From: Vandammella animalimorsus | GTDB lineage: Bacteria > Pseudomonadota > Gammaproteobacteria > Burkholderiales > Burkholderiaceae_C | DNA: 64,000 bases | Assembly (NCBI RefSeq): GCF_002285285.1 | Contig: NZ_NSJF01000003.1 | Location: 1-64,000 of the forward strand | Direction: 5' to 3' | Shown here: piece by piece, positions 38,807 through 43,423 of the stretch | Numbering within the stretch: the stretch's first letter is position 1 | Layout: each line of letters begins with the position of its first letter | Notes under the pieces: model-generated | What the model was told of the DNA's origin: nothing | Seen by the model: only the letters and a program-made list of their open reading frames with translations | Database searches by the model: none | Made by a program: the position numbers and the translations under genes

Positions 38807-38879
38807 CCCTGGCTGGATGCGCACTGCCGCACCCAGCCAGGGGAAAACCCTGGCCGGCCTGCCAGGGTTTTGATTTTTT
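38807..38879 (+). promoter_or_regulatory. attenuator-like tandem hairpins
   Basis: Hairpin 1 pairs CCCTGGCTGG (38807-38816) with CCAGCCAGGG (38833-38842), with a further TGCG/CGCA stem in the loop. Hairpin 2 pairs AAAACCCTGG (38844-38853) with CCAGGGTTTT (38862-38871) and is followed by ATTTTTT, making a strong intrinsic terminator. The second arm of hairpin 1 can also pair with the first arm of hairpin 2 (one mismatch), so the structures exclude each other as in an attenuator. The ribosome-binding site of the next ORF starts at the end of the T run. Confidence 0.65.
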
Positions 38880-38889
38880 GGAGCAGCAC

Positions 38890-39123
38890 ATGCGTGCCAA
38901 ACCCACTGCGGGCGCCGCCCGCGCCCGAACATCCCGCCCGCCACAGCGCCCCCTGCCTGCAGCCAGCCTGCCGGTGCGCAACCCCTACGCCCGGGCGCTG
39001 GCCGCCAAGGCCAGCACAGGCGCTGGCGGCAAGCACATGCGCAGCCAGGGCGCACAGCGCCGGGCCGAGCGCATGGCCTTGCAGCACAGCCTGCGCACGC
39101 GCGACTGGGCCAGCGCCGAGTGA
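38890..39123 (+). CDS. small basic protein ahead of AAA/M41 protease
   Basis: This 77-residue protein is rich in Arg, Ala and Pro (RAARARTSRPPQRPLP-like N terminus) with a more ordered C-terminal half, AQRRAERMALQHSLRTRDW. It has a GGAGC ribosome-binding site directly after a terminator hairpin. No family is recognised. It lies 70 bp upstream of the protease gene on the same strand, so the two probably share a transcript that must pass the terminator. Its basic nature suggests nucleic acid or acidic partner binding, which is a guess. Confidence 0.5.
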   Translation: MRAKPTAGAARARTSRPPQRPLPAASLPVRNPYARALAAKASTGAGGKHMRSQGAQRRAERMALQHSLRTRDWASAE

Positions 39124-39193: not shown

Positions 39194-41242
39194 ATGACAT
39201 CGCAGACCCAACCACCCAAAGGCAAAGACACAGGCAGCGCGGCTGAGCCACCCGCGCCACCGACCAAGCACCCCGCCAGCGCGGCGCGGCCAGGCACAGC
39301 GCCCCTGCCCGCCGCAAGCGGCGCCGAACACCAGCAGCTGATGCAGCGCCTGATGGCGCGCAGCCACGCATTGCACCAGGTCGCCCAGCAGCTCAAGCAG
39401 GAGCTGTTCGGCATTGACGCCATCATCGACCGCGTGATCGACACCATCCGCGCCTGGTACGTCATGCCCGAGTTGATCCAGCGCCCGGTGATCGTCTGCC
39501 TGTGGGGGTTGACCGGCACCGGCAAAACCCAGCTCACGCGCTCGCTGGCGCGCAAGCTGGGCTTTTACGATCGCTTCGTGGAGGTGCAGATGGACGGCTT
39601 CTCCCACGGCACCAGCAGCTGGCATGGCGCAGGCAGCATCTCGCGCATTTTGGAGAGTTCGGGCATCGACGAGGGCGAGCCGGGCATTCTGGTGCTGGAC
39701 GAATTCCAGCGCTACCGCACCCTCAACGAGCAGCGCCAGGAAGTCGAAGTGCAGCGCTACCAGGATGTCTGGGCCTTGCTCTCGGACGGGCGCCTGCCGC
39801 CCTCGGTCTCCTTCCTGGGAGAGCTGGAATCGACCCTGGCCGAAGCGCGTTACGACGAGCAGCAACGCAGCCCTGGCGAGCGCCGCGCTCTGACCAAGAA
39901 GCCGCTGCGCGTGAGCGCCTACGAGGCCCAGTCACTCAAGCGTGCGCTCAAACTCAAGGAGCCGCTGCTGGAGATCATGGCCTGGTCGCCCGAGCGCGTT
40001 GAGCAGGAGCTGGCGCGCGTGCGCGGCAGCGAACAAAGCTGGGAGACGGACTACAGCCGCCTGCTGATCTTCGTCTGCGGCAACCTGGACGAGATGTACG
40101 AATCGCTGGCGCGGCGCGTGGAGGACTGCGACACCGACGCCGACGTGTTTCACAGCCACAGCCTGCGACTCTCGCTCATCGACGTCAAACGCGCCCTGGC
40201 GCAGCGCTTCAAGCCCGAGCAGGTCGCGCGCCTGGGCAATCAGCACCTGATCTACCCCTCGCTCAACCGCGCCGCCTACACGCGCATCATCGACGAGCAC
40301 TGCGCACAGTACACAGAGCAAATGCAGCACAGCACCGGGCTGCGCTTTGTGATCACGCCTGAAGTGCGCCGCGAGATTTACGCCAATGGCGTCTTCCCCG
40401 CTCAGGGCACGCGGCCGCTGTTCTCCACCCTGCATGCCGTGCTGGGCACACCGCTGGTCAATGCCGCCGTCTGGGCCCTTGGTCTGGGTGCGCCAGCGGG
40501 CAGCACCGTCGAAGTGCGCCTGGGCGCAGACGGCCAGAGCCTGTGCGCACACGCGCTGGGCCAGCAACTGCACTGCCCCGTGGCCTTCGAAGTGCGCACG
40601 CTGCGCCAGCGCACGCTGACCGACTTTCGCGCCCTGCTGGCCGTGCATGAGGCCGGTCATGGCCTGGTGCATGCGCTGCTGTTTGGCAGCGCGCCGCAGG
40701 AAATCCGCATCAACGTCGCCAGCTTTGAGGGCGGCTACGCCATGTTCAGCGACCTGCAATCGTGGTCGCGCAGCAACTGGCTTGATCGCATCGCTGTTTG
40801 CCTGGCCGGGCGCGCAGCTGAAATCGTGGTCTTCGGCGCCGATGCCTGCTCCAGCGGCGCTGAGCAAGACATCCAGCACGCCACCGAATACGCCAGCCGC
40901 TTCGTGCGATTCCTCGGCTACGGCGAGCGCCTGGCGCGCACCGACGTGACCAGCGAAACGAACGAGCACCTCAACACCGACGTGCAACCCAGCAACCTGG
41001 CCATTGAAGCCATCCTGCAGGCGCAGATGGAGCGCAGCACGGCGCTCATCGCCGCGCACAGCCAGCAACTGCTGGCCCTGGTGGATGAGCTCATGCGCCA
41101 CGGCGAGCTTGGCCGCCAACGACTGGCCGAACTGCTGGGCGTGCCCATGGCGCCACAGGACCCGATGGTGCTGACCGACTACGCCCAGCGACTGCAAACC
41201 TTTGCCCAGCGCGACCTGGCGCACGACACGCCCAACTCTTGA
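39194..41242 (+). CDS. Clp-type AAA+ ATPase fused to M41 zinc peptidase
   Basis: This 682-residue protein joins a Clp/HslU-like AAA+ domain to an FtsH-type M41 peptidase. Walker A is GLTGTGKT (105-112), Walker B GILVLDEF (164-171), sensor 1 near FVCGNLDE (293-300) and a sensor-2-like GTRPL near 405. The peptidase has HEAGH (485-489) and the third zinc ligand Asp559 in SSGAEQDIQHAT, as in FtsH. No transmembrane helices precede the ATPase, unlike FtsH, so it should be soluble. The start follows a low-complexity region and is the first ATG with credible context; a much longer upstream frame was rejected. Probably an ATP-dependent protease; substrates unknown. Confidence 0.82.
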   Translation: MTSQTQPPKGKDTGSAAEPPAPPTKHPASAARPGTAPLPAASGAEHQQLMQRLMARSHALHQVAQQLKQELFGIDAIIDRVIDTIRAWYVMPELIQRPVIVCLWGLTGTGKTQLTRSLARKLGFYDRFVEVQMDGFSHGTSSWHGAGSISRILESSGIDEGEPGILVLDEFQRYRTLNEQRQEVEVQRYQDVWALLSDGRLPPSVSFLGELESTLAEARYDEQQRSPGERRALTKKPLRVSAYEAQSLKRALKLKEPLLEIMAWSPERVEQELARVRGSEQSWETDYSRLLIFVCGNLDEMYESLARRVEDCDTDADVFHSHSLRLSLIDVKRALAQRFKPEQVARLGNQHLIYPSLNRAAYTRIIDEHCAQYTEQMQHSTGLRFVITPEVRREIYANGVFPAQGTRPLFSTLHAVLGTPLVNAAVWALGLGAPAGSTVEVRLGADGQSLCAHALGQQLHCPVAFEVRTLRQRTLTDFRALLAVHEAGHGLVHALLFGSAPQEIRINVASFEGGYAMFSDLQSWSRSNWLDRIAVCLAGRAAEIVVFGADACSSGAEQDIQHATEYASRFVRFLGYGERLARTDVTSETNEHLNTDVQPSNLAIEAILQAQMERSTALIAAHSQQLLALVDELMRHGELGRQRLAELLGVPMAPQDPMVLTDYAQRLQTFAQRDLAHDTPNS

Positions 41243-41452
41243 GGCGGCACAGGCAAGGCCTGCGCACACCACCGCGCCGTGCTCCCCTGTGTCGGACTCA
41301 GGCAGACCCTCCATGGCGGCGCAGCAACAGCGCCAGGCTGCCAGATCGGGCGCAAACCCAGGCTGGCCTTATGATGCGCCTCGCAGTCATCCCAGCCTCT
41401 GGCGCCTGCGCCAAGGCTGCAATACAAGGCAAGAGCCCAAGGAGTGAGGAAC

Positions 41453-43423
41453 ATGGTCAGCACTTTCGTGCCACCGCCAATCGCGGCCGTCGACGCCGAG
41501 CAGCACGCCCTGCTGGAGCGCAAGCTGCACGCCGTCGAGGCCCTGTGCGCCCAGGCGCCGCAGAACGCCGAGCTGCACTGGCAACGCGCCTGCCTGCTGG
41601 AGCAGCTGGGCCGACTCGATGCACTGCGCGACGCGCTGCAGGCCACGCTCAAGCACCGGCCCGACCATGTGCAGGCAGCGCTGCTGCAAGTGCGCGTTGG
41701 TCAGCGCGGCGACCGGCTGGACATCGACGCCAGCGCCTTGGACCCCACCGAGGCCGCAGCCCTGCAAGAGCGCCAGCAAGAGCTCGACCGCCACGTGGCG
41801 CGCCGCAACGAGGCGCTGCTGCGCCGCCTGCGCGCACTGGAGCCCGACAACACCGACGTGCTGGCGCTGCTGGCCCAAACCCTGACGCAGCAGCCCTCGC
41901 CGCCAGCGGAAAAACTGCGCGAGGCCCAGCTGCTGCTCGACCGCGCCATTGACCTCGCGCCTGAGCGCATCGACCTGCTCAAACAGCGCGCGCACCGCCT
42001 GCGCCAGCAGGCCTTGCTCGATCCGGCACAGGCCGCGCAACTGCCGCCCGAGCAAGTGGTGCGCACCTCGCACGGGCACTACTATGAGCGCGCCGGCCTG
42101 GAGCACGCCTGCGCCGACTGGCAGCGCTGCCTGGCGCTGAGCGCGCAGCCCAGCATCACCACCCGCGTGGGCATGTGCCTGCACGAGCTGGGCCATTTCG
42201 AGCAAGCCGTGGCCACTTACGACCGCGTACTGGCCCGGATGGACCCCCGCCACCCTGGCTACACCCACGTGCAAAGGCTGCGCCGCCGCTCACAAGAAGG
42301 CGGCTGCGGCGGCAGCAGCGAGACCTGCTCTTGCGAGGGCATGAGCACGGCGCTGGCCGATAGCCTGGACGAAGGGCCTCACAGCCAGGCTCAACAAGCC
42401 CAGCCCGCCCCGGTGGCCGCCCAGGCCAACGCCGCCCAGGCTGAGCTGACGCAGGACGCCAATGCAGCGCACCATGCCAGTACAGCCGACGCGGCCAGTG
42501 CGACCAGCGCCCCGGCGCAGCCCCAGCCAGACGCCCCCACGCCCCAGCAAGCAATCGTGCAGCATGTCCAACTGCCCACGGAAAAGGAAAAAAAGCGCCG
42601 CGGCAGCCGCAAACGCAGCGAAGCTGCGCCCGCCAACCAAAGCGCGGCCAGCACCGAGGCCGGCGATGCCCGCACGCAGCAGGCCATCTCCATCGCCCAG
42701 CTGTTCCTCAACGAGGCCTACAAGGACGCCTCCGGCCTGCGCGCCGTACAGCCCGGCGACTATCCGGCCGGGCAGCGCCGCCTCATCGACAAGATTGGCG
42801 CGGCCCTGAGCGCCACAGGCCTGCGCCACCTGGCCGATGCCGAAGCCAGCGGCCTGTCCAAGCTGCTCGGCCAGCCCACCTTGGTACGCATCTACACCGA
42901 TGCGCGCGGTGAAACCGGCGTGGCCGCCTTCGTCATCAGGCCCCAATGGCCGGGCCTGCTGGGCTTTGCACTGCGGGCCTTGCGCGGGCAATGGAAAGCC
43001 CAGGCCATGCTCAGTTGTGAAACCCTGCTCGAATCGGGCAGCCTCATCATCACGCAGTGGGACAGCCCTTCGCCCTTCCAGTACGAGCCGCCGGTCTATC
43101 TGGAACGCCTGCCCGCCCGCACCCCAGTGCACAAAGTGCTGCAGCGCCACCAGCAAAAGATTGCCGCACACATGCTGATGCACCCGGAAGACGCCATCGT
43201 TTGCGCCCAGGATCTGGCAGCCATCGAGGCCCGTTGGCATCGCAGCCAGCACATCCGCCGCGCCCAGCGCAAGGCCGTGGGCTACGCCACGCAGGCTGAG
43301 CTCAAGCAGCTACTGGGCCCCAAGCATTACTTGTCCATGGCCGCCAGCGTGCGCCTGCAACTGCAGCGCCTGGCGCGCGATTACGAGGCCGGCTGGGACA
43401 GTGCACCGCAGACCCAGCTGTAA
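41453..43423 (+). CDS. TPR protein linked to AAA/M41 protease
   Basis: This 656-residue protein has an N-terminal helical region with TPR-like repeats (about 15-290), including MCLHELGHFEQAVATYDRVL. A short Cys-rich motif CGGSSETCSC lies near residue 285, followed by an Ala/Gln-rich linker of about 100 residues and a conserved-looking C-terminal domain (about 405-650) of no recognised family. A GGAGTGAGGA ribosome-binding site precedes the ATG; a GTG three codons upstream is possible. It follows the AAA/M41 gene by 210 bp on the same strand, suggesting an adaptor or substrate-delivery role, which is inference. An R1 repeat begins at its stop codon. Confidence 0.7.
   Translation: MVSTFVPPPIAAVDAEQHALLERKLHAVEALCAQAPQNAELHWQRACLLEQLGRLDALRDALQATLKHRPDHVQAALLQVRVGQRGDRLDIDASALDPTEAAALQERQQELDRHVARRNEALLRRLRALEPDNTDVLALLAQTLTQQPSPPAEKLREAQLLLDRAIDLAPERIDLLKQRAHRLRQQALLDPAQAAQLPPEQVVRTSHGHYYERAGLEHACADWQRCLALSAQPSITTRVGMCLHELGHFEQAVATYDRVLARMDPRHPGYTHVQRLRRRSQEGGCGGSSETCSCEGMSTALADSLDEGPHSQAQQAQPAPVAAQANAAQAELTQDANAAHHASTADAASATSAPAQPQPDAPTPQQAIVQHVQLPTEKEKKRRGSRKRSEAAPANQSAASTEAGDARTQQAISIAQLFLNEAYKDASGLRAVQPGDYPAGQRRLIDKIGAALSATGLRHLADAEASGLSKLLGQPTLVRIYTDARGETGVAAFVIRPQWPGLLGFALRALRGQWKAQAMLSCETLLESGSLIITQWDSPSPFQYEPPVYLERLPARTPVHKVLQRHQQKIAAHMLMHPEDAIVCAQDLAAIEARWHRSQHIRRAQRKAVGYATQAELKQLLGPKHYLSMAASVRLQLQRLARDYEAGWDSAPQTQL

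Follow-up and report, generated by a model that had tools for sequence, protein, structure and literature searches.

Which kind of enzyme results when an M41 zinc peptidase is joined in one chain to a Clp-type AAA+ motor is the question raised by a gene on contig NZ_NSJF01000003.1 (Burkholderiales), analysed here within a stretch of 64,000 nucleotides (nt) referred to as the window. In the ATP-dependent proteases known so far, each peptidase pairs with its own kind of motor, ClpP with Clp ATPases and M41 peptidases with FtsH-type AAA domains. The gene product (the chimera) is quite likely a single-chain, soluble, ATP-dependent zinc protease, which forms a two-gene unit with a small basic protein in Burkholderiales and belongs to a family shared with huge phages. 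A preliminary description of this DNA had proposed a soluble chimera of this kind together with a downstream tetratricopeptide repeat (TPR) protein as its adaptor. The soluble chimera was upheld and the TPR adaptor was not; the small gene upstream (38890-39123) and the phage relatives had no place in that description.

Three Pfam domains, AAA (7e-7), ClpB_D2-small (4e-5) and Peptidase_M41 (1e-18), were found in this order in the chimera, each above its cut-off, in agreement with the domain order read earlier from the letters. The motifs named there (Walker A, Walker B and GTRPL of the AAA+ part, followed by HEAGH and the Asp D559 of the M41 part) are all in place. Conservation was assessed in an alignment of 118 rows (the window, 77 other chromosomal, 2 second-lineage and 38 viral copies), from which 22 of 62 newly extracted frames were excluded. 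The Walker A Lys and Thr, the Walker B Asp and Glu, N297, R346 and R407 are invariant in all 118 rows, as are both His and the Glu of HExxH and the Asp 559, and as far as the alignment tells the active-site residues of the chimera are intact. In two viral copies (L125 and L130), HExGH is replaced by HEAAH and HEASH, and the zinc ligands are retained. No FtsH-like membrane helix was found in a 19-residue hydropathy scan of the chimera (maximum 1.54, compared with 2.25 to 3.21 in three true FtsH), as had been supposed; among the family rows, 9 of 118 exceeded 1.6, with a top value of 1.89. The Walker B Glu and the sensor-1 Asn are 127 residues apart (123 to 222 in the family), compared with approximately 41 in ClpA and ClpB D2 of E. 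coli and 64 in ClpX. The mostly helical insert that fills this distance could carry substrate or adaptor contacts. The ratio of nonsynonymous to synonymous substitution rates (dN/dS) of the chimera gene was 0.13 for a single pair, the window and the related locus L004. The host genome (3.08 Mb, 13 contigs) encodes a second M41 protein, which is an ordinary FtsH by its placement in the AAA and M41 trees.

The origin of the two halves was assessed with hhalign against eight reference proteins. Family residues 50-440 align lengthwise with the D2 modules of ClpB (E 5e-10, 282 columns) and ClpA (2e-7, 262 columns) of E. coli, whereas the alignment with E. coli FtsH covers the surroundings of Walker A and B only (8e-6, 97 columns); that with ClpX is likewise confined to the Walker motifs. 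Residues 465-660 match the three FtsH alone among the eight references (E. coli FtsH M41, 3e-20). The sensor-2 motif GxRP is present in 118 of 118 family rows and the FtsH-type second region of homology (SRH) in none, while the reverse holds for all three true FtsH. An AlphaFold2 model of the AAA part alone (62 rows; predicted local distance difference test (pLDDT) 92.7, predicted template modelling score 0.90) was compared to the PDB with VIA-align, and the 50 entries listed were all Clp/Hsp100 proteins (Z 19.9-21.9), among them Skd3, ClpC, ClpA, ClpB, Hsp104, ClpX and the PTEX motor. FtsH is not among these 50 entries, which by itself does not exclude FtsH. The claim of a Clp-type rather than FtsH-type AAA domain is thus borne out by both motifs and structure matches. 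The family and six FtsH each form one fully supported group in the AAA tree, so that the AAA domain does not fall within FtsH, the placement that would have spoken against the earlier proposal; a sister union of the two is not rejected. The M41 tree separates 20 family rows from 14 FtsH. Scores against the NCBIfam models are far below the cut-offs for FtsH (TIGR01241, 57.5 versus 600 bits), ClpA (37.8 versus 993 bits) and ClpB (32.9 versus 1232 bits).

Table 1. Coordinates of the chimera, its functional sites and the two neighbouring genes in the window.
Feature	Position	Strand	Remarks
AAA+ (Hsp100/Clp-D2 type)-M41 zinc peptidase chimera	39194..41242	+	682 aa from ATG, ~76 kDa, isoelectric point (pI) 6.0
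AAA+ module, residues 46-445, including C-terminal small domain	39329..40528	+	AlphaFold2 and VIA-align
Walker A, GLTGTGKT	39506..39529	+	
Walker B, LVLDE	39689..39703	+	
Mostly helical family-specific insert, Walker B helix to sensor 1	39791..40048	+	alignment spacing, helices in model
Sensor-1 Asn N297	40082..40084	+	118/118 rows; role by analogy
Candidate arginine finger R346 (FKPEQVARLGN)	40229..40231	+	118/118 rows; role by analogy
Sensor-2 Arg R407 (GTRPL)	40412..40414	+	118/118 rows
M41 peptidase domain, residues 480-650	40631..41143	+	Pfam PF01434; hhalign to E. coli FtsH E 3e-20
HEAGH zinc/catalytic motif	40646..40660	+	both His and Glu 118/118, Gly 116/118
Third zinc ligand Asp D559	40868..40870	+	118/118; ligand role from FtsH alignment
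Small basic protein gene, RNP..ARAL....AGGKHMRSQGAQRRAE	38890..39123	+	77 aa, pI ~12; conserved operon neighbour
TPR protein gene, outside the conserved system	41453..43423 (ATG 41453 or GTG 41444)	+	neighbour only in the window's genus

A search of GTDB species genomes with patterns of the window protein returned at least 80 related loci; all counts out of 80 given here cover the loci listed. Vandammella animalimorsus (L004, 92% identity) is the closest named relative at this place, which points to Vandammella as the window's genus. Profile searches of samples of the order (300 genomes), class (369) and phylum (398), in which few candidates were scored per genome, contributed two genomes from a single further family in addition to the window's own genome and G122. 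In a second bacterial lineage, the protease gene is located between hisF and hisE. No match at 1e-10 was obtained in 72,556 plasmid records, and PADLOC, searched for known defence systems, gave only weak partial matches to the AAA region of the protease (best 2e-5). One genome (G141) harbors two full-length protease copies, on contigs C64 and C59, and in another (G146:C22:21492-23397) the protease is matched by two overlapping frames rather than one.

Scanned with a profile, IMG/VR yielded 54 viral loci, of which 51 encode the chimera; two other AAA proteins (L173 and L174) and an AAA part without M41 (L171) were excluded. Several of the 51 loci are on near-duplicate contigs; the locus L151 is broken and L152 is cut. 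Since the architecture recurs at no fewer than 80 GTDB loci and at 51 of 54 viral-contig loci, it is far beyond chance. Seventeen of the 51 viral contigs are larger than 200 kb, the largest being 548 kb. Terminase_6N was matched in 7 of 20 tested contigs, and the T4-type Gp23 capsid model in the same seven and in none of 14 control genomes. A broader PHROG, the matches of which coincide with terminase frames in three check contigs, adds six of the other 13 contigs and also matches 11 of the 14 control genomes. No consistent flanking gene was found across 38 viral loci; one copy (L123) has a clamp-loader gene as its neighbour and a DNA helicase gene at a distance of a few kb, and the contig of L134 carries thymidylate synthase. 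On two small contigs, virion genes (for a major head protein on L121 and a tail fibre on L122) accompany a Burkholderiales-type chimera copy, and tblastn placed a divergent small gene just upstream of the protease in both.

In isolated phages (50,697 records), the window protein had no tblastn match at 1e-5. Other queries matched 32 records (P0001) and 26 (P0002) at 1e-3, and one each (L123, L163 and L138) or none (L154) at 1e-8. No record had a place covering 80% of the query; in the rows listed, the matched part is the C-terminal one with M41. Among the PHROG matches listed, none extends over both domains of the chimera. One of the records matched, CAKLQH020000021.1, is labelled phage, shows a bacterial-looking ftsJ-ftsH-folP neighbourhood and is probably host contamination. 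On a 296-kb phage contig (L119:166-4532), many small open reading frames (approximately 65-120 aa) were seen, whose C-termini carry an FKL-type motif by eye and which are perhaps a tandem paralogue array. At L120:7034-9165, an RtcB-like frame appears by eye in two pieces with a 263-aa frame between them, which may be an intein or homing endonuclease.

The family tree was built from 38 viral rows, 16 rows of the Burkholderiales type and 2 of the second lineage. The Burkholderiales rows form one group with the prophage-like L121 (support 100), which is nested in a group of 25 holding eight further viral rows (support 99), and the second lineage is placed elsewhere. A single bacterial clade is rejected, both with L121 outside (p 3e-6) and with L121 inside (p 1e-4). 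Because the Burkholderiales clade lies among viral rows, the second lineage is separate and one clade is rejected, exchange between phages and bacteria probably took place at least twice. The bacterial copies of this family, which huge phages also carry and which probably crossed between phages and bacteria, may thus derive from captured phage proteases. As the tree is unrooted, was built by a quick method and has long branches, the direction of transfer is judged from the location of the diversity.

In Burkholderiales, the chimera gene is preceded by the gene of the small basic protein, with a gap of 70 nt to the protease ATG in the window. A terminator-like hairpin with a T run lies just 5' of the small gene, at window positions 38844-38871. 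The corresponding proteins upstream of other proteases are 73 to 83 aa long with a pI of approximately 12 (14 examples). By tblastn the small gene was found in 72 of the 80 listed loci, and in 71 of these a protease gene was called. In 70 of the 71, an in-frame protease start codon falls within the stretch from 11 nt before the stop of the small gene to 30 nt beyond it, an optimistic measure taken to the nearest possible rather than a proven start; at L013, the exception, approximately 0.8 kb separate the two genes. Two of the loci without the small gene (L003 and L037) are stretches that begin too near the protease. In 150 genomes of the family, a full-length protease was found in 16 (one of them split), a strong match to the small gene (E at most 1.5e-20) in 16 and both in 15, always on the same contig and strand and less than 1 kb apart. 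The two-gene unit of Burkholderiales is probably translationally coupled. Since relatives exist apart from the protease, the small protein is a member of a wider family that became protease-linked in Burkholderiales. It had no Pfam, PHROG or NCBIfam match below 0.01 and no PADLOC match; its wider relatives in L207 and L209 had no match in PHROGs, the one database searched with them. No match of the small protein was found in phage records, and none was confirmed in IMG/VR. A likeness to the ribosome-rescue factor ArfA was considered, and no ArfA match was seen. The small protein is most likely an adaptor for substrates, a regulator of the protease or itself one of its substrates.

The chimera would assemble into a hexamer, in which a Hsp100/Clp-D2-type AAA+ ring would grip and unfold a substrate and pull it through the pore. 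The substrate would then be threaded straight into the attached M41 peptidase ring, in an FtsH-like manner but in the cytosol, free of an anchor and with a different motor, resulting in ATP-dependent proteolysis. Host factors or intermediates of phage assembly might be its targets in phages. In Burkholderiales, the small basic partner may deliver substrates to the protease or restrain it. A wider scenario is conceivable, and we put it forward as tentative and doubtful as a whole: the Hsp100-M41 protease class would have arisen in huge phages for the degradation of host proteins, for instance defence or transcription factors, and would have been captured by bacteria at least twice, the small partner steering or restraining it in Burkholderiales and perhaps converting a tool of phage take-over into a housekeeping or anti-phage protease.

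Several results weigh against a Clp-motor M41 protease with a small partner and a huge-phage family. The AAA part of Lon reached a better E-value (8e-8) than ClpA, though over 120 columns only, and the position of the family beside ClpA/B D2 in the AAA tree has a support of 69. The pore-loop aromatic residue is not clearly conserved across all phage members, and 13 of the 20 viral contigs tested gave neither hallmark match. As to the small gene, it was not found by tblastn in six uncut loci (L022, L036, L045, L066, L067 and L076) nor near the protease copies on huge-phage contigs. One genome (G147, locus L206) has the small gene without a protease match and another (G122) the protease without a strong small gene; weaker lone relatives occur in G113, G132 and on another contig of G122. 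Furthermore, the dN/dS of the small gene (0.57 over 77 codons) indicates little constraint.

Descent from FtsH, with loss of the membrane helices and simple divergence of the AAA domain, would account for the AAA-M41 order. The whole-chain model (pLDDT 68) has FtsH chains as its best matches, which also counts against a Clp-type motor, and an AAA tree joining the family with FtsH is not rejected by the approximately unbiased (AU) test (p 0.096). The whole-chain matches are explained by the domain order, which is common to both, and the absence of the SRH, the invariant GxRP, ClpB_D2-small above its cut-off, the closeness of the AAA model to Clp/Hsp100 and the low NCBIfam FtsH score make a diverged FtsH highly improbable. 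The chimera might also be a chaperone or unfoldase, or a phage morphogenesis factor, in which the peptidase domain is vestigial or only regulatory. AAA+ chaperones are thought to serve virion assembly in jumbo phages, according to PMC7824862, and the clamp-loader gene beside L123 fits such a role; the retention of HExxH and the third-ligand Asp in every row renders it unlikely.

The protease and the TPR protein would, as the preliminary description held, form a protease-adaptor system. The next gene does encode a TPR protein (TPR matches in Pfam, TPR_14 above its cut-off) on the same strand after a 210-nt gap with no terminator-like site listed between the genes, and the two genes occur together in both searched genomes of the window's genus. 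These are, however, the only 2 of 150 family genomes with the TPR gene (the window's own and one congeneric) in the neighbourhood survey, and among the 80 listed loci it adjoins the protease in none but the two closest, L003 and L004. Gene calling placed argA downstream of the protease in 30 of the 80, immediately next to it in 22 of these, and in L004 and the window the TPR gene is interposed between protease and argA. Not being conserved beyond the window's genus, the TPR gene was rejected as partner, and an adaptor function is very unlikely. That bacteria had the chimera first and huge phages captured it would be compatible with the properties of the family tree named above and with bacterial sampling within one phylum. 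Most of the diversity sampled is, on the other hand, covered by viral rows, the two groups of bacterial rows stand apart with their union rejected, and viral rows branch deepest within the family in the AAA tree that includes Clp and FtsH, although this fork is weak; a bacterial origin is therefore rather unlikely.

As an M41 peptidase joined to a Clp-type motor, the protease preferred here breaks the pairing of peptidases and motors described at the outset, and the distribution of the family suggests a little-noticed protease kind shared by viruses and bacteria. Among the papers listed in literature searches, which left subscription papers mostly aside, none was seen that describes a bacterial or phage M41 domain joined to a Clp-type AAA domain; this is no proof of absence. 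As a natural soluble M41 machine, the chimera should be purified more easily than FtsH. It would provide huge phages with a self-contained protease, and should it serve take-over there, its substrates would reveal host factors important during infection.

Among phage proteins, the FtsH of jumbo phage MIJ3/PA5oct, described in PMC6892783, is likewise an M41 protease on a huge phage. With strongly hydrophobic N-terminal stretches, a classical AAA domain grouping with FtsH and an SRH-like motif, and with only its M41 part aligning with the chimera family, MIJ3 FtsH is a true FtsH, distinct from the chimera. A jumbo-phage overview (PMC7824862) names ClpP, ClpS, SprT, ArdC, ClpA, ClpX and MoxR systems; the words FtsH and M41 are absent from its main text. 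Of these, ClpP, ClpS, ClpA, ClpX and the MoxR-vWA/metallopeptidase pairs are also phage peptidases, adaptors or AAA+ chaperones, but consist of separate proteins with other peptidase types, unlike the fused chimera. In PMC7139368, an AAA+ protein of a phage is noted that has an M41-named KOG match. With FtsH and the m-AAA and i-AAA proteases (M41, TIGR01241), the chimera has in common an M41 domain C-terminal to AAA+ in one chain and HExxH plus Asp. It differs from them by the lack of membrane helices, an extra insert and a Clp/Hsp100-type AAA with sensor 2 and D2-small instead of the classical AAA with SRH. With ClpA, ClpC and ClpB D2 and with ClpX, it shares the fold of the AAA+ module, the sensor-2 Arg and the D2-small domain, whereas it has one AAA+ module and a fused M41 zinc peptidase instead of a separate ClpP. 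Like AAA+ proteases in general, it brings together the motifs of an ATPase and the active site of a peptidase in a single assembly, and on its predicted features we rate it as one of this kind, a combination of FtsH and Clp that is neither one.

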